The notes beneath the pieces were generated by a model, which saw only the letters and a program-made list of their open reading frames with translations, did not search any database and was not told the origin of the DNA. The translations under genes were made by a program, and so were the position numbers. From Solitalea longa (lineage in GTDB: Bacteria; Bacteroidota; Bacteroidia; Sphingobacteriales; Sphingobacteriaceae), in the NCBI RefSeq assembly GCF_002920915.1, contig NZ_PQVF01000001.1, forward strand, positions 1-64,000: DNA of 64,000 nucleotides, given 5' to 3'. This document shows positions 30,749 through 38,662 of the stretch, piece by piece. Numbering within the stretch: position 1 is the first letter of the stretch; each line of letters begins with the position of its first letter.

Positions 30749-31450
30749 ATGAAAGTAGAGATCTGGTCGGACATAGCTTGTCCGTTCTGTTATATAGGGA
30801 AAAGAAGGCTGGAAAACGCATTAGAGCAGTTTCCGAATAAAGAACAAGTTGAAATAGTGTGGCATAGCTTTGAACTTGATCCTAATGCGAAGTACGATGA
30901 GGGGAAAGATATCCATGACATTTTATCAGCAAAGTATGGAAGAGATCGCGATTGGGCAATTCAGATGAGTGAACAGGTAAGTGCTATGGCCAAAGAAGAA
31001 GGCCTTGATTTTGACTTCAGTAAAAATGTTCCGGCAAATACATTCAATGCCCATCGTTTAATTCATTTGGCCAATAAACATGGAAAACAGGACGAAGCAA
31101 AAGAGCGACTTTTAAAAGCTTATTTTACCGAAGGACAGGATGTTGACAGCAAACAAGTGCTGGTGAAGCTTGGAGAAGAGATCGGTTTGAATACGATTGA
31201 AATTGAAAAGATGCTTGATTCAGATGAGTTTGGTTATGATGTAAGGGTTGATGAGCAGGAAGCAAATCATATTGGAGTTCGCGGAGTTCCTTTCTTTGTG
31301 GTAAATCGTAAATACGGCATTTCAGGTGCACAACCTTTGGAGGTTTTTACCGATACGCTGAATAAAGCCTGGAGTGAAGAACATCCTCTTGAAATTGTTA
31401 ATGATAATGGAGTAGGAATGTGCTCTCCGGATGGAACTTGTGAAGTTTAA
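30749..31450 (+). CDS. FrnE-like DsbA family thiol oxidoreductase
   Basis: 233 residues without a signal peptide, so cytosolic. The redox motif is Cys11-Pro-Phe-Cys14 near the N-terminus. The cis-Pro loop is GVRGVPFFV, and the helical insertion fits the FrnE/2-hydroxychromene isomerase branch. The C-terminus ends with Cys225 and Cys231 (GMCSPDGTC), an extra pair reminiscent of the second redox-active cysteines in Deinococcus FrnE. It is monocistronic, ended by a hairpin before the gbsR operator. Confidence 0.9.
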   Translation: MKVEIWSDIACPFCYIGKRRLENALEQFPNKEQVEIVWHSFELDPNAKYDEGKDIHDILSAKYGRDRDWAIQMSEQVSAMAKEEGLDFDFSKNVPANTFNAHRLIHLANKHGKQDEAKERLLKAYFTEGQDVDSKQVLVKLGEEIGLNTIEIEKMLDSDEFGYDVRVDEQEANHIGVRGVPFFVVNRKYGISGAQPLEVFTDTLNKAWSEEHPLEIVNDNGVGMCSPDGTCEV

Positions 31451-31510: not shown

Positions 31511-31532
31511 GTGTAAGTTCTTTATTGTTATT

Positions 31533-31558
31533 AAACTTTCAATAATATTTGAAAGTTT
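31533..31558 (+). promoter_or_regulatory. Palindromic operator upstream of gbsR
   Basis: Perfect 10-base arms AAACTTTCAA and TTGAAAGTTT around a 6-base centre. The core TTTCAA-N6-TTGAAA recurs with identical spacing at 32116-32133. The right arm contains the putative -33 TTG of the gbsR promoter, so binding would block transcription. Confidence 0.7.
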
Positions 31559-31578
31559 AGAAAATTGTTTTACATTTG
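31549..31578 (+). promoter_or_regulatory. gbsR promoter (-33 TTG, -7 TACATTTG)
   Basis: TTG at 31549-31551, 19 bases, then TACATTTG at 31571-31578, matching the Bacteroidota consensus. The ATG at 31583 follows within five bases of the -7 box, so the transcript is nearly leaderless if this is used. Confidence 0.6.
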
Positions 31579-31582
31579 AATT

Positions 31583-32089
31583 ATGAACTTAGTTGAAGGC
31601 AAAGAACAATTTATTCAGGCCTGGGGCACATTAGGCTCTAAATGGGGTATTAACCGTACTATGGCCCAAGTCCATGCATTGTTAATGATCTCTGCGGATC
31701 CACTAAGTACGGAAGATATTATGCAAGAGCTAAATATCTCCAGGGGTAATGCGAATATGAATGTTCGTGATTTGATTGATTGGGGTTTGGTAGAGAAAGT
31801 GCATAAATCGGGTGATCGCAAAGAATACTTTTGGGCCGAAAAGGATATTTGGAAAGTAACTACCCAGGTGGCTAAAGAGCGTAAGAAACGTGAGTTGGAA
31901 CCGGTTCTTAAAGTGTTGGATCAGTTAAGTAATGTAGAAGGAGACCGAAACGATAAGAATGTTAAAGCTTTTGTTGAAGGTATTTCTGGGATTAAACGGA
32001 TGGCTACCAATGCCGATAAGACCTTAGAAACCATGATCAAAGCAGAAGAAAACTGGTTTTTTGGGGCAATTCTTAAACTATTTAAATAG
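31583..32089 (+). CDS. GbsR/MarR family transcriptional regulator
   Basis: 168 residues. A winged helix-turn-helix lies at about 20-85 (LSTEDIMQELNISRGNANMN, then the wing KSGDRKEYF). A C-terminal helical part for dimerisation follows. GbsR-type regulators typically repress their own operon. Palindromes with the same geometry sit just upstream of this gene and just upstream of the next gene. It heads a rightward set of seven genes. The ligand is unknown. Confidence 0.9.
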   Translation: MNLVEGKEQFIQAWGTLGSKWGINRTMAQVHALLMISADPLSTEDIMQELNISRGNANMNVRDLIDWGLVEKVHKSGDRKEYFWAEKDIWKVTTQVAKERKKRELEPVLKVLDQLSNVEGDRNDKNVKAFVEGISGIKRMATNADKTLETMIKAEENWFFGAILKLFK

Positions 32090-32115
32090 CGAGAGCTATT
32101 TTTTTTGAATATATA

Positions 32116-32133
32116 TTTCAATAAATATTGAAA
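32116..32133 (+). promoter_or_regulatory. Second palindromic operator, between gbsR and the DCC gene
   Basis: TTTCAATAAATATTGAAA, a perfect 18-base palindrome with the same TTTCAA-N6-TTGAAA core as 31537-31554. No matching -7 box was seen at the expected distance, so any internal promoter is uncertain. Confidence 0.65.
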
Positions 32134-32153
32134 GTTCTGAATATAAAATAAAA

Positions 32154-33002
32154 ATGAAAACACTTTTAAATAAGATCATCGTTTATGACAGCAACTGTAA
32201 AGTATGCACAGGGCTAAAAGACAAGTTGCTTCGGCTTACTTCTATTGATGAAAAACGAGTGGTAGCGTTTGCACATTTGAATGATGAGTTAATAAGGAAA
32301 ATTGATCCGGATCGGTTTAAAAATGCAATGGCTTTAATAGACGTTCAGAATGGTGATACCATGTACGGAAGCGAGGCTATAGCTTATATCTTTTCTACCA
32401 AAAGTCAATTAATCGAAAAAGGGCTATCGCTCAAACCGGCTTATCGATTGTTTAATTTTCTTTATCAAACATTGGCCTACAATCGTTACATCATTGCAAC
32501 ACCTAAAAGCCAATTTGCATGCGATTGTTTTCCTGACAAGGTAATCCGTTTCCGAATCGCTTACATTTTAATAGCGACTAGCCTTTCTGTTTTACTTACT
32601 TGTTTATTTGGCATTTCACTAAGAGGTTTCTTCCCTACCCTTTCTAATTCACAAGCTGCAATGCAGATGTTACTGATGGCGGGAACCGGTTGGGTTATTC
32701 AAATTGGACTTGCAGCAATATGCTTAAGAGATAAAGCCATTGATTATATCGGTCATCTTGCAAGTATAATGGTAGTTGGTTTATTGATACTGGTTCCCTG
32801 GATGATCTTCCATTTTATTACAGGAGTTAATCTTTACTACTTGCCTTTAATAAGTGTTTTATTCAGCAGTTTATACATGTTCTATATGCATTTAACAAGG
32901 ATTAAGCATTTAGCTCTCTCACAGTTTTGGACCATTAGCTGGTTTATACTACTCCAATCATCAGCTGCTTTTTGGATTTACTACTATCACTTTAATTATT
33001 AA
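32154..33002 (+). CDS. DCC-family (DUF393) thiol-disulfide protein with membrane domain
   Basis: 282 residues. The N-terminal thioredoxin-like domain has Asp12-x2-Cys15-x2-Cys18 (YDSNCKVC), the DxxCxxC motif that names DCC proteins. The C-terminal half has about four TM helices (near 143-163, 170-197, 205-225, 230-280). It might shuttle electrons or disulfides near the membrane. It is the second gene of the gbsR operon, with an operator-like palindrome in the 64 bases before it. Confidence 0.82.
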   Translation: MKTLLNKIIVYDSNCKVCTGLKDKLLRLTSIDEKRVVAFAHLNDELIRKIDPDRFKNAMALIDVQNGDTMYGSEAIAYIFSTKSQLIEKGLSLKPAYRLFNFLYQTLAYNRYIIATPKSQFACDCFPDKVIRFRIAYILIATSLSVLLTCLFGISLRGFFPTLSNSQAAMQMLLMAGTGWVIQIGLAAICLRDKAIDYIGHLASIMVVGLLILVPWMIFHFITGVNLYYLPLISVLFSSLYMFYMHLTRIKHLALSQFWTISWFILLQSSAAFWIYYYHFNY

Positions 33003-33006
33003 TCAT

Positions 33007-33924
33007 ATGGAATTGAATAAGATCATTATTGCTGGAGGTACAGGTGCCTTAGGAAAATTATTAACAAAAGAGTTTCTCAATCAAGGGGCTAAAGTTATTG
33101 TCTTAACAAGGAATCCGAAAGAATCAGGAAATCCAAATCTTAAATACGTCTATTGGGATGCGGTTAACAATGGGGATTGGAGTCAGGAATTAGAGAACTC
33201 AAACGTAATTATTAATCTAACAGGTAAATCAGTAAACTGTAGATATACAGCTAAAAATAAAAGAGAAATAATCGAGTCAAGAACACTCTCAACCTTAGCT
33301 ATTGGAAAGGCTGTTGATAAACTAAACAATCCACCAAAGGTATGGATCAATGCGGGTTCTGCAGCCATATTTGGAAACTCTGGTCCTGATTTTAAAACCG
33401 AACAATGCTTATACGGAGATGGTTTTTCATCCGATGTTTGCAAGAAATGGGAGAATGCTTTTTTTGAGATCGAAACACCAAACACCCGAAAAATTTTCTT
33501 ACGAATAGGCATGGTCCTTCAAGTGGGAGAAGGGGTAATAAAGCCATTTATGAATATGGCAAAGATGGGGTTTGGTGGAAAAATTGGAAATGGGGAACAA
33601 TTCATTACCTGGATTCATGAAAAAGACTTTATGAACATAATTAATTGGAGCATTCAACATGAAAGTATGAATGGAATACTTCATTGTGCTAGCCCAGAAC
33701 CAGTAACTAATAAAGAATTTATGATTGCCTTAAAAAAAGCGTGTCATGTTCCCTTTGGTCTTCCAACTCCAGCTTTAGCGGTAAGGCTAGGCGCAATGGT
33801 AATTGGTACAGAACCTGAATTAGTTTTATCTGGTCGCAGGGTTATTTCAACCGTCCTTGATTCAGAAGGGTTTAAATTCAAGTACCCACAAATAAATCAT
33901 GCACTTCAAGATCTGATTGCTTAA
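33007..33924 (+). CDS. TIGR01777 family NAD(P)-dependent epimerase-like protein (SDR39U1 type)
   Basis: 305 residues. The Rossmann motif is GGTGALG (residues 10-16), then VLTRNP, and the family segments ITWIHEKDF and NLTGKSVNCRYT. The C-terminal DUF1731-like part (HVPFGLPTPALAVRLGAM) closes it. The extended SDR fold predicts an NAD(P)-linked oxidoreductase or epimerase; the substrate is unknown. It follows the DCC gene by 4 bases, and its stop overlaps the start region of the SRPBCC gene. Confidence 0.9.
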   Translation: MELNKIIIAGGTGALGKLLTKEFLNQGAKVIVLTRNPKESGNPNLKYVYWDAVNNGDWSQELENSNVIINLTGKSVNCRYTAKNKREIIESRTLSTLAIGKAVDKLNNPPKVWINAGSAAIFGNSGPDFKTEQCLYGDGFSSDVCKKWENAFFEIETPNTRKIFLRIGMVLQVGEGVIKPFMNMAKMGFGGKIGNGEQFITWIHEKDFMNIINWSIQHESMNGILHCASPEPVTNKEFMIALKKACHVPFGLPTPALAVRLGAMVIGTEPELVLSGRRVISTVLDSEGFKFKYPQINHALQDLIA

Positions 33925-33925
33925 A

Positions 33926-34429
33926 ATGCCAATTATATATCTCAGCACTGAAATAAAAGCACCAATTCAAATCTGTTTTGATCTGGCTCGAAGCATTGAT
34001 CTGCACAAATTATCGATGAAGCATACCAACGAAAAGGCCATTGCAGGAAGAGTCTCCGGGTTAATTGAACTGGGAGAAAGTGTTACCTGGCAAGCAAAAC
34101 ACTTCGGTATTAAGCAGCAACTAACCTCAAAGATCACAGGGTTTACGTATCCAGTTTTCTTTAGAGACGAAATGACCAAAGGGGTTTTCAAACGGATTAA
34201 TCACGAACACTGGTTCTTAAATGAAAATGGTCATACCGTCATGACCGATGTTTTTGAGTTTGAATCTCCTTATGGGTTCTTCGGTAAAGTATTCAACAAC
34301 CTTATTCTTTACGATTATTTAAGGCAATTGCTTGAAAACAGAAACGCCCTTATTAAACTGATTGCCGAAGGCGGTCAATGGAAAAGTCTTTTGAATTATG
34401 AACAAACAACGAGTTATTATGAACACTGA
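33926..34429 (+). CDS. SRPBCC (START-like) family protein
   Basis: From ATG 33926 the product has 167 residues; a TTG start at 33917 would overlap the previous gene and is less likely. The sequence fits the helix-grip fold: LSTEIKAPIQICFDLARSID at the start, FRDEMTKGVFKRINHEHWF in the middle, and a C-terminal amphipathic helix. Such domains bind hydrophobic ligands, which fits lipid or wax-precursor handling in this operon. That link is inferred from the neighbours. Confidence 0.82.
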   Translation: MPIIYLSTEIKAPIQICFDLARSIDLHKLSMKHTNEKAIAGRVSGLIELGESVTWQAKHFGIKQQLTSKITGFTYPVFFRDEMTKGVFKRINHEHWFLNENGHTVMTDVFEFESPYGFFGKVFNNLILYDYLRQLLENRNALIKLIAEGGQWKSLLNYEQTTSYYEH

Positions 34430-34844
34430 TAAGTTCTATCACCAATTATTTGCATGTGCAGCTATCTATAATATTGCCTGGGGAATTGTTGTCATTCTAT
34501 TTCCAAATTTATTATTTGACCTGCTCGAAATTCCTCCTTTAAATTATCCATTCTTAATGAGTGGCATCGGTATGTTCGTTGGAGTGTATGGCTACGGTTA
34601 TTGGGTGGTTTCGAGAGAACCGCTGAAATACCCGCAATTGGTTTTTATTGGGTTAATGGGAAAAGTTCTTGGTCCAATCGGTTGGTTCTACCATGTTTAT
34701 TTAGGAGATATTCCACTACGCAGTATGTGGATCAATGTGTTTAATGATCTTGTTTGGATTCCTTTTTTTGTTGCTTATCTGATTTGGGTAAATAATTCAT
34801 TAAATGAAAATCATCAGTATGAACAAACTGGAATTGACAATTGA
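34398..34844 (+). CDS. Small membrane protein, lipid-operon member
   Basis: 148 residues with four predicted TM helices (about 18-38, 46-68, 80-98, 112-130). It overlaps the SRPBCC gene by 32 bases; a start at Met8 (34419) would reduce that to 11. It overlaps the next gene too. No enzyme motif is recognised. It is tightly packed within the gbsR/wax-synthase operon. Confidence 0.68.
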   Translation: MNKQRVIMNTDKFYHQLFACAAIYNIAWGIVVILFPNLLFDLLEIPPLNYPFLMSGIGMFVGVYGYGYWVVSREPLKYPQLVFIGLMGKVLGPIGWFYHVYLGDIPLRSMWINVFNDLVWIPFFVAYLIWVNNSLNENHQYEQTGIDN

Positions 34845-35235
34845 AATAGCAGGATTTGCTCAAATTGCATTGGTAATTGGAAGTCTTTTAATTCCTTCTT
34901 TATTAAAGTGGAAGGAGGAATTAAGCAAAGTAAAATCTCTCATTCGCCAGATTTTCTGGACCTATGCAGCCTATATTTTAGCTACTAACTTATCCTTCGG
35001 TCTTATCTCCGTAATGGGTGCTAATGAGCTCATAAATGGTTCTTTTATGGCGAAGTCCATTACGTTCTTCATATTAATTTATTGGCTAAGCCGAATCCTT
35101 ATTCAGTTTTTCTATTTCGACAGGAAGAGTGTGCCATCAGGATTGATTTTTAAATATGGAGAAGTAGTATTAGTGATTCTGTTTGTGGCACTTACGATTA
35201 TTTATGGTTATGCATTTTATTATAATCTGAATTAG
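34804..35235 (+). CDS. Small membrane protein, lipid-operon member
   Basis: 143 residues, with four hydrophobic segments (about 11-30, 44-66, 76-97, 112-138). ATG 34804 overlaps the previous gene by 41 bases; ATG 34819 is an equally good start. No family is recognised. The stop is one base before the acyltransferase start, so the two are probably translated together. Confidence 0.65.
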   Translation: MKIISMNKLELTIEIAGFAQIALVIGSLLIPSLLKWKEELSKVKSLIRQIFWTYAAYILATNLSFGLISVMGANELINGSFMAKSITFFILIYWLSRILIQFFYFDRKSVPSGLIFKYGEVVLVILFVALTIIYGYAFYYNLN

Positions 35236-35236
35236 A

Positions 35237-36217
35237 ATGGAAACCTTTTTACCAAATCTTGAGCAATCCTACAAAATAGTCTTCTTCTTTTTTATTAGTG
35301 TTCTAATTATTGGAACGTTTATCACAAGGCTGAAAAATGGCAGCTTTTCGGTATTCTTAAGTTGGCTGTTGTTCTTTTTAGGAGGAGGCGCAACATTATA
35401 TTTTGTCCTTTTTGAAAGGAATGGATTTAGAATGTTAGTACTTATTCCAATGCTTTTATTGTGTATGAAAGTGATTGTAACTTGTACTACTTATAAGGAT
35501 CAAACTAAAAAACTTGCCCTTCACAAATGGTTGGTTTTCGCATTGGGCTGGTTTGGTATGCGTCCGAAATTGTTTGAAACATTAGGAAAGGGCTCGCTCA
35601 GCGAAGCCTTGAAGCTAATTTTCGATGGGTTTTTACGGGTTGTCATTGGTTTTTCCTTGTTACTTTTAAGCAGATTCGTAGCGAACTTGGGAAATTCAGA
35701 ACACCTCAAATTCTTATATACAGTATTAACGTTTGCAGGGCTAAGTTTCATTCTGCATTTTGGAATATTAACAATTAGTGCAGGAGTTTGGAGGTGTTTT
35801 GGAATTAACACACAGAAACTCTTTAAAGAACCCCTTAAATCCAGAAGTCTAGCTGAGTTTTGGAGCAAAAGATGGAATATAGCATTTTCAGAAATGACCT
35901 CAATTGCCGTTTACAGACCACTAGTAGTCAATTTAGGTAGGAAGTGTGCATTGGTGACTTCATTTCTGTTTTCAGGTTTTTTACATGAACTTGCTATTAC
36001 TGTTCCGGCTGGTGCCGGATTTGGTTTACCCACAATTTATTTTTTACTGCAAGCAATAGCTATTATCATAGAAGGAGAAATCAAAAGGTTAAGCATCTTT
36101 AAGAATCAGTTTATCGCCAAACTATGGGTTTTTAGCTGGTTGATTTTACCAATTCAGTTGCTCTTTCCTCCTGAATTTATAAGAGTGATTATTTGGCCTA
36201 TTATAGGAGTTCATTAG
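35237..36217 (+). CDS. Wax-synthase-like membrane-bound O-acyltransferase (MBOAT_2 type)
   Basis: 326 residues with about eight TM helices. The core matches the wax synthase domain of plant and bacterial acyltransferases: EFWSKRWN (Trp209, Trp213, Asn214), then VYRPLV, and FSGFLHELAI with His250, the usual catalytic His. Such enzymes join fatty acyl-CoA to fatty alcohols or to other hydroxyl acceptors. It is the last gene of the gbsR operon, with the stop overlapping a convergent esterase. The acceptor substrate is unknown, so wax ester is only one option. Confidence 0.75.
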   Translation: METFLPNLEQSYKIVFFFFISVLIIGTFITRLKNGSFSVFLSWLLFFLGGGATLYFVLFERNGFRMLVLIPMLLLCMKVIVTCTTYKDQTKKLALHKWLVFALGWFGMRPKLFETLGKGSLSEALKLIFDGFLRVVIGFSLLLLSRFVANLGNSEHLKFLYTVLTFAGLSFILHFGILTISAGVWRCFGINTQKLFKEPLKSRSLAEFWSKRWNIAFSEMTSIAVYRPLVVNLGRKCALVTSFLFSGFLHELAITVPAGAGFGLPTIYFLLQAIAIIIEGEIKRLSIFKNQFIAKLWVFSWLILPIQLLFPPEFIRVIIWPIIGVH

Positions 36218-38014: not shown

Positions 38015-38662
38015 TTAAATATCTTCAGAACTTGTATAAGCGATCATATACTCTGCGTACTCCTGATAGTAAATTAAGAAATCAGTCGGGCAGTTTTGGT
38101 CGAGGATATTAGCCTGAATAAGACCTTTTGTATTGTAGTCAAAAGGTTTTAATCGTATGTGGTCCTGAAGGCTTACTGTTTTTTTTCCAAACAGTTTATA
38201 CAATGCTTCTTTTGCAGCCCAGCAGGCATACAAATGTTTTATTTTATGTTCGGTATTAATAAACGTTAGTTCTTCATCACTTAAAAATTTGCCTTCAACG
38301 CGTATAATCTTATCCTTTATCAATTCGATATCAATGCCTACTTTTTTGCTTTTACTGATCATAACTGCAGCATAATCAAATGAATGACTTAAGGAAAAAT
38401 GGTGAGGCAGATTTACCAAATACGGTTTGTTATGTTCATCGAGGCTGGTTTTAATAAAATCAGGAGTATTGATCAAACTTCTTAATAAAACACGACTGCT
38501 GAGCCAATGCAGCTCTCTTTTTCCCTTACTCAGGCTTTCATAAACTTCTTTTTCCGATTGATCAAGCTGAAGCTTTGAATATAGCAGTTCAGCAGGTTCT
38601 TCAATTTTCCAAATGGCAAATTCCGTATCGTTATCAAGTATTTTATGTAGCACAATGGCCAT
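38015..38662 (-). CDS. 4'-phosphopantetheinyl transferase (Sfp type)
   Basis: 215 residues. Motifs of the superfamily are present: FSLSHSFDYAAVMIS, VGIDIELI (Mg2+-binding Asp/Glu) and WAAKEALYKLFGKK. It moves the phosphopantetheine arm from CoA to carrier proteins such as ACP. No carrier-protein gene is nearby, so it may serve general fatty-acid synthesis or a distant biosynthetic cluster. It is upstream of and in line with the CBM9 gene. Confidence 0.92.
   Translation of the reverse strand: MAIVLHKILDNDTEFAIWKIEEPAELLYSKLQLDQSEKEVYESLSKGKRELHWLSSRVLLRSLINTPDFIKTSLDEHNKPYLVNLPHHFSLSHSFDYAAVMISKSKKVGIDIELIKDKIIRVEGKFLSDEELTFINTEHKIKHLYACWAAKEALYKLFGKKTVSLQDHIRLKPFDYNTKGLIQANILDQNCPTDFLIYYQEYAEYMIAYTSSEDI

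Follow-up and report, generated by a model that had tools for sequence, protein, structure and literature searches.

The regulators GbsR, OpcR, OpuAR and CydE share a family, a winged helix and an A/T-rich inverted-repeat operator by the regulator gene, and these features recur in the system described here. Of the Bacillus proteins, OpcR obstructs the -35 region, and GbsR works as a roadblock (PMC7396694). A 2018 survey of GbsR proteins (PMC6207618) presents a Bacteroidetes group without a consistent picture of its gene neighbourhood. Here, we analyze a stretch of 64,000 nucleotides from Solitalea longa (NZ_PQVF01000001.1, positions 1 to 64,000; hereafter the window), in which a gene for a GbsR-type regulator, gbsR, heads seven co-directional, tightly packed genes (31583-36217) that end with an MBOAT acyltransferase gene. 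Sequence comparison indicates that this operon is one local version of a wider Bacteroidota regulon, in which one GbsR repressor family appears to control a gene set through a common DNA site. No description of this gene set was found in the open-access literature, and it seems to combine known protein and repressor families in an undescribed regulon with a defined operator.

The gene gbsR (31583-32089, plus strand) encodes a GbsR/MarR-type regulator of 168 amino acids that matches MarR_2 at 6.1e-10. The CudC model (NF047500) matches residues 5-114 at 1.3e-12, with 47.9 bits against an equivalog cut-off of 218. By these matches, the protein is a member of the GbsR family with a MarR-type winged helix, and lies outside the choline-responsive CudC/GbsR equivalog. 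Full-length matches, counted by match length, occur in 41 of 296 genomes of the phylum, 27 of which were fetched besides the window genome. The 47 full-length loci compared below consist of 21 from the window, MBOAT-bearing genomes and same-genus relatives, and 26 from the phylum sample. In a congener (genome G029, locus L144), gbsR is 99% identical to that of the window.

A 28-bp palindrome, TAAACTTTCA-N8-TGAAAGTTTA (31532-31559; operator 1), lies upstream of gbsR, and a second site, ATTTCAATAAATATTGAAAG (32115-32134; operator 2), lies between gbsR and the next gene, which encodes a DCC protein. Of the 47 full-length loci, 45 have the core TTTCA-N8-TGAAA within 130 bp upstream of gbsR and 33 have it within 130 bp downstream, at the equivalent of operator 2. 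Among nine relatives with shorter matches, the core is present upstream in two and downstream in none; one of these two, L241, is probably a true orthologue, and is the only one of the nine to carry a member of the gene set (a single gene). The perfect form ACTTTCA-N8-TGAAAGT occurs once in the window genome, at operator 1. A scan of the window with the correct spacing returned the two sites (4 matches over both strands, 0.27 expected), while a first pattern with the wrong spacing gave nothing above chance (3 against 1.38).

The association extends beyond the window. In the 27 gbsR-positive genomes, 19 of the 21 exact occurrences of CTTTCA-N-W6-N-TGAAAG are located at gbsR, and the reversed control occurs three times; 21 genomes with no gbsR match at the thresholds used contain five scattered exact sites. 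Eighteen further genomes hold 16 exact sites, comprising 11 at gbsR, three at a gene pair described below (mem143-MBOAT) and two elsewhere, and when one mismatch is allowed, these genomes yield 70 sites, while the reversed control yields 25. Across 1.05 Mb of fetched loci, which had been selected around gbsR and MBOAT, there are 97 occurrences of the core and six of its reversed form. A wider regulon inside the window genome was rejected, since the two-mismatch count there (35) is below that of the control (47). An additional one-mismatch site (C1:523402) falls inside an open reading frame (ORF) that by eye resembles a LysR regulator. Some sites in relatives, either lone exact ones or ones with a single mismatch (L176, L180, L182-L188), have no cassette member that could be recognised close by and were set aside as background.

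In flavobacteria, the motif TAnnTTTG serves sigma-A as the -7 box and spans -12 to -5 (PMC9723704). It occurs within 45 bp after operator 1 in 37 of 45 loci, against a mean of 1.5 in shuffled sequences, and the spacing between the two is 15-17 bp in 36 of 38 occurrences. In the window, the predicted box is TACATTTG (31571-31578, plus strand), 16 bp past the operator core. Where mem143-MBOAT stands alone, the box again follows the operator by 15-17 bp in nine of ten cases. With this spacing, the operator would cover the -33 side of the promoter. In 36 of 45 loci, 26-29 bp separate the end of operator 1 from the gbsR start codon, and in the window (31571-31585) the ATG comes 5 bp after the end of the gbsR -7 box. 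With so little room between these elements and the start codon, the gbsR mRNA may be leaderless. The distance from operator 1 to operator 2 is 563-630 bp (33 loci).

The genes behind these operators are drawn from a limited set. Within 6 kb downstream and on the same strand, 38 of the 47 gbsR loci have at least one member of the set and 33 have at least two; the phylum-sample loci have operator 1 in 24 of 26 and cargo in 19 of 26. The most frequent members are a TIGR01777-type short-chain dehydrogenase/reductase (SDR; 29 loci), the DCC protein (23), an SRPBCC-like protein (16), a membrane protein of about 120 amino acids (15) and the membrane protein mem143 (9). DUF2071, an SRPBCC-membrane fusion and MBOAT are each present in eight loci, a PF17648 protein in six, another membrane protein in four and the membrane protein mem148 in two, where all family labels come from profiles built partly on these same loci. 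A fatty-acid desaturase gene lies inside one cassette (L248).

By its gene content, the unit is a regulon with optional, swappable parts. The congener G029 retains the repressor, both operators, DCC, SRPBCC and mem148; the SDR gives way to DUF2071 and a protein whose Rossmann signal is weak (E 0.1), and there is no mem143-MBOAT. In Mucilaginibacter-type genomes the parts are dispersed, each behind copies of the operator. Genes standing alone behind an operator include DCC-SDR (L177, L178), an SRPBCC-membrane gene with a PF17648-like neighbour (L181) and, in genome G094 (L179), a mem148 homologue of 44% identity. G094 also has two operator copies amid divergent genes (L178, 2463-6224), with a diacylglycerol-kinase-type gene and a phosphatase-like ORF on one side and an operon of a small membrane protein, DCC and SDR on the other.

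The pair mem143-MBOAT is likewise found, mostly in Mucilaginibacter, as a separate two-gene operon behind the same operator. The core lies 38-98 bp upstream in 10 of 11 stand-alone Bacteroidota pairs, and all 11 genomes also carry a gbsR orthologue; this test covers the pairs in which the mem143 ORF was called, which leaves aside those of Planctomycetales L078 and Acidimicrobiales L084. Since the pair can stand alone under the operator and is missing from the congener cassette, acylation would be a separable, optional step. Comparative genomics makes a strong case for control through this site, and we infer that the control is repression.

A mem143 homologue adjoins MBOAT in 19 of the 21 named loci, and the two exceptions (L085, L086) are the weakest relatives. 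The pair is present in Mucilaginibacter, Pedobacter, Dyadobacter, Hufsiella and Paradesertivirga. Beyond the phylum, it occurs in Cohnella and in metagenome-assembled genomes of Planctomycetales, Verrucomicrobiia and Acidimicrobiales. In Cohnella, a DCC gene is immediately upstream of the pair, while a Verrucomicrobiia locus (L083) has the order DUF2071, methyltransferase, mem143, MBOAT, mem143, TIGR01777, DUF2071. Two Streptomyces plasmids (L189, 5078-7426; L190, 5066-7408) carry ArsR, DUF2071, a methyltransferase and a mem143-like gene in a row, with no MBOAT annotated beside the mem143 relative; judged by its genes, this row is a relative of part of the cassette under another regulator. In genome G007, the MBOAT gene (L064, 6016-6906) has an in-frame TGA and mem143 lacks the operator, as if the pair were decaying or outside the regulon.

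In the window, mem143 (34804-35235, plus strand) encodes a four-helix membrane protein of 143 residues, modelled with a predicted local distance difference test score (pLDDT) of 93.5. Foldseek returned nothing under E 0.001. The best VIA-align rows (Z 10.0 and below) were Fc epsilon RI, CD20, the sigma-2 receptor and designed proteins; given the Foldseek result, these are taken as four-helix arrangements only and kinship is not claimed. A mem143 profile found no PDB sequence up to E 1. In a profile comparison of the small membrane proteins, mem143 was unrelated to mem148 or to the others, and the only relation was between two other small groups. Its constant position next to MBOAT suggests that mem143 is a partner protein of the acyltransferase.

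The last gene of the operon (35237-36217, plus strand) encodes 326 amino acids that match MBOAT_2 (PF13813) with 37.7 bits, above the gathering cut-off of 25. MBOAT_2 was matched by 21 of 21 relatives at E 0.01 or better and the general MBOAT model by one of 21; the alignment comprises 21 sequences. A set of 25 rows, from which L065, L085 and L086 were omitted, contains both copies of L060/L066 and of L063/L081, each of which is one genome and was counted once in genome counts. A sequence-only reading of the window had named a wax-synthase-like acyltransferase with Trp209, Asn214 and His250, and all three residues proved invariant in the 21 homologues. That reading had asked whether the predicted fold lies in the MBOAT class, which it does: the AlphaFold2 model (pLDDT 93.0, predicted template modelling score 0.90) aligns to DGAT1 in VIA-align with Z 21.6 over 305 residues at a root-mean-square deviation of 4.8, and 26 MBOAT rows reach Z 15.6 or more, the next row having 8.8. 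The top 19 Foldseek rows, 13 rows overall being at E 0.001 or below, are DltB, DGAT1, ACAT/SOAT, HHAT and LPCAT3, with one (6bug) titled only "a membrane protein".

The profile of the 21 relatives matched plant DGAT1 among PDB sequences (3.3e-6), and its only PDB matches are DGAT1. The WN motif and His447 of plant DGAT1 align to N214 and H250, and a deposited H447A chain has Ala in the His column. On the model and these alignments, it is well supported that the product folds as an MBOAT, with the predicted active-site residues N214 and H250 on the DGAT1 active site. MBOATs of this type transfer acyl groups onto hydroxyls, and the enzyme probably attaches fatty acids to a lipid. Whether that product would be a wax ester is a point on which the findings weigh neither way. 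Its distribution is patchy: 7 of 151 genomes in the family of S. longa match at E < 1e-50, and the other 18 matching genomes are weak (best 3.5e-9). In the 296 phylum genomes, 46 match at E 0.001, and the only strong match is that of the window itself, followed by 6.7e-7. A tblastn search of 72,556 plasmid records gave no match, so that plasmid carriage of this MBOAT was not found.

The remaining genes of the window operon lie between gbsR and mem143 on the plus strand. The DCC1-like thiol-disulfide protein (32154-33002; 282 amino acids; PF04134, 1.6e-8) has a C-terminal hydrophobic part. The TIGR01777/DUF1731 SDR (33007-33924; 305 amino acids) scores 248.7 bits against a cut-off of 207.35. 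It has G123 where most cassette SDRs have Arg. The SRPBCC-like protein (33926-34429; about 167 amino acids) gives a weak Pfam signal and probably starts at ATG 33926 rather than TTG 33917, because the congener protein begins MPIIHLS; with this start it does not overlap the SDR. The small membrane protein mem148 (34398-34844), like mem143, has no family match in either Pfam or NCBIfam. All ORFs are at the positions noted, and the packing and partial overlap that had been read from the sequence hold true (the overlaps are SRPBCC/mem148 and mem148/mem143), apart from a 64-bp gap between gbsR and DCC, which holds operator 2 and corrects that reading. Its protein assignments are borne out by the Pfam and NCBIfam matches, with a weak label for SRPBCC. 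As for neighbourhood conservation, the order gbsR-DCC-SDR-mem143-MBOAT is found again in seven other genomes (L060=L066, L061, L063=L081, L072, L075, L076, L077), so the arrangement is not due to chance. The named operon relatives are from Sphingobacteriaceae genera and Dyadobacter.

A DsbA-family gene (30749-31450) lies directly upstream of gbsR. A DsbA homologue also adjoins gbsR in the congener, and in Hufsiella (L063/L081) it is on the opposite strand. Downstream of the operon, on the opposite strand, is an alpha/beta hydrolase gene, and near the operon, also on the opposite strand, is a PPTase-like ORF named by eye (38015-38662), which belongs to the flank and not to the cassette. These flanks are collinear in G029.

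Taken together, we consider it fairly probable that a GbsR-type repressor switches a cassette for membrane-lipid modification, whose optional last step is the O-acylation of a lipid alcohol. The repressor, presumably a dimer, would bind the palindrome TTTCA-N8-TGAAA. Bound at operator 1, on the -33 side of the gbsR and stand-alone mem143-MBOAT promoters, it would block the polymerase, while operator 2, which separates gbsR from the cargo, would serve as a roadblock or as a partner in looping. A signal, probably lipid-like or (photo)oxidative, would release it. The cargo would be taken from a small set of parts: DCC, TIGR01777 or another Rossmann protein, SRPBCC or DUF2071 folds and small membrane proteins, joined in some cassettes by a desaturase or MBOAT. 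Hydrophobic ligands are bound by folds of the SRPBCC and DUF2071 types and NAD(P) by TIGR01777 proteins; DCC proteins resemble thioredoxin. A putative order of steps in the window begins with DCC and SDR, which would ready a lipophilic intermediate or protect it. The SRPBCC-like protein would then carry this intermediate, and mem143-MBOAT would link a fatty acyl chain to a hydroxyl group as an ester. The sequence-only reading had proposed a complete membrane-lipid or ester-modifying pathway. A lipid- or ester-modifying set fits our findings; "complete" does not, because the cargo is modular and the regulon has optional parts. A more specific version, in which a Bacteroidota GbsR subfamily with two flanking operators controls a lipid toolkit and mem143-MBOAT is a two-subunit acyltransferase capping the product to give an acylated stress lipid not described before, is put forward tentatively.

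Several observations weigh against the switched lipid cassette. Nine of the 47 gbsR loci have no recognised cargo, two lack operator 1, and 13 of the 27 gbsR-positive genomes contain no site in the strict search (14 do). The extended pattern with three mismatches is barely more frequent than its control (188 against 162), operator 2 is followed by a TAnnTTTG box in none of 33 loci, and the pairs of G007, Cohnella and Verrucomicrobiia L082 have no operator. In addition, the window proteins are atypical: the DCC protein is divergent, with CKVC replacing the usual CPMC, and Phe122 of the SDR stands at a position that is Tyr in 29 of 30 aligned cassette SDRs, so that the active site of this enzyme may differ from theirs. 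"SRPBCC-like" is itself a weak working label, because the score against Polyketide_cyc (PF03364) is 14.7-14.8 bits (E 0.036), under the cut-off of 23.4.

The same architecture could instead serve photoprotection, as a regulon for light or oxidative damage that makes a photoprotective or quencher lipid, like LitR regulons. A DPRP-type photolyase gene is near gbsR in L154, L230 and L233, a Cupriavidus plasmid has a TIGR01777 gene after a cryptochrome/photolyase gene and another SDR, and genes for UfaM, a fatty-acid enzyme, and for an SDR accompany phrB in a Pseudomonas LitR region (PMC9758184). These neighbours weakly suggest a role in light or oxidation for the cassette; however, a photolyase neighbour is found at only three of 47 gbsR loci and not in the window, and no photoreceptor was seen beside the genes listed, which leaves photoprotection as the purpose rather unlikely. 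An osmostress operon, which would answer to choline or glycine betaine through its GbsR and adapt the membrane to salt, is very improbable. It would agree with the GbsR-type fold of the regulator and with the Firmicutes relatives of GbsR that answer to choline or glycine betaine (PMC6207618), but the regulator falls far below the CudC cut-off and no choline or betaine genes are among the recognised cargo families. The same survey gives the aromatic cage as absent outside the osmostress group, a statement about the survey's proteins and not about this one. As for the acyltransferase, DltB is among its best Foldseek rows and an NCBIfam DltB match reaches 33.4 bits, as would fit a DltB/AlgI-like enzyme that takes acyl groups from a carrier protein to modify a polymer or another protein, and not a lipid. 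That score is far under the TIGR04091 cut-off of 375, MBOAT_2 and DGAT1 are the consistent matches of the family, and the window operon has no recognisable gene for a carrier protein or a DltD-like protein; this reading is therefore improbable.

With this regulon, Bacteroidetes GbsR proteins gain the consistent neighbourhood that is missing from the 2018 survey (PMC6207618). DCC, TIGR01777, SRPBCC-like, DUF2071 and PF17648 proteins and family-less membrane proteins become tied to a single operator, and a partner protein is predicted for a DGAT1-like bacterial acyltransferase. If true, the toolkit version would give the Bacteroidetes GbsR group a function.

Compared with its closest relatives in regulation, the system differs in its cargo, which is lipid-type where GbsR relatives control betaine or cytochrome bd genes, in the two sites that flank gbsR, and in a half-site spacing of 8 bp, against 4 bp in Bacillus GbsR (PMC7396694). 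By analogy, the two site positions would permit both the blocking modes of OpcR and GbsR. The Pseudomonas LitR/PplR system is comparable in that a single regulator governs a lipid-modifying enzyme with an SDR and a photolyase gene as neighbours (PMC9758184); it differs in having another class of regulator and UfaM, whereas here the regulator is GbsR, MBOAT is present sometimes and photolyase occasionally. Corynebacterium CrtR resembles it as a MarR-type, light-inducible control of adjacent genes for lipophilic compounds (PMC6739363), although the window operon has no recognisable carotenoid gene. Finally, the window MBOAT has the fold and the active-site Asn and His in common with the MBOATs of the DGAT1/wax-synthase type; unlike them, it is shorter (326 amino acids) and bacterial, and stands beside a four-helix protein in an operon that a repressor would control.

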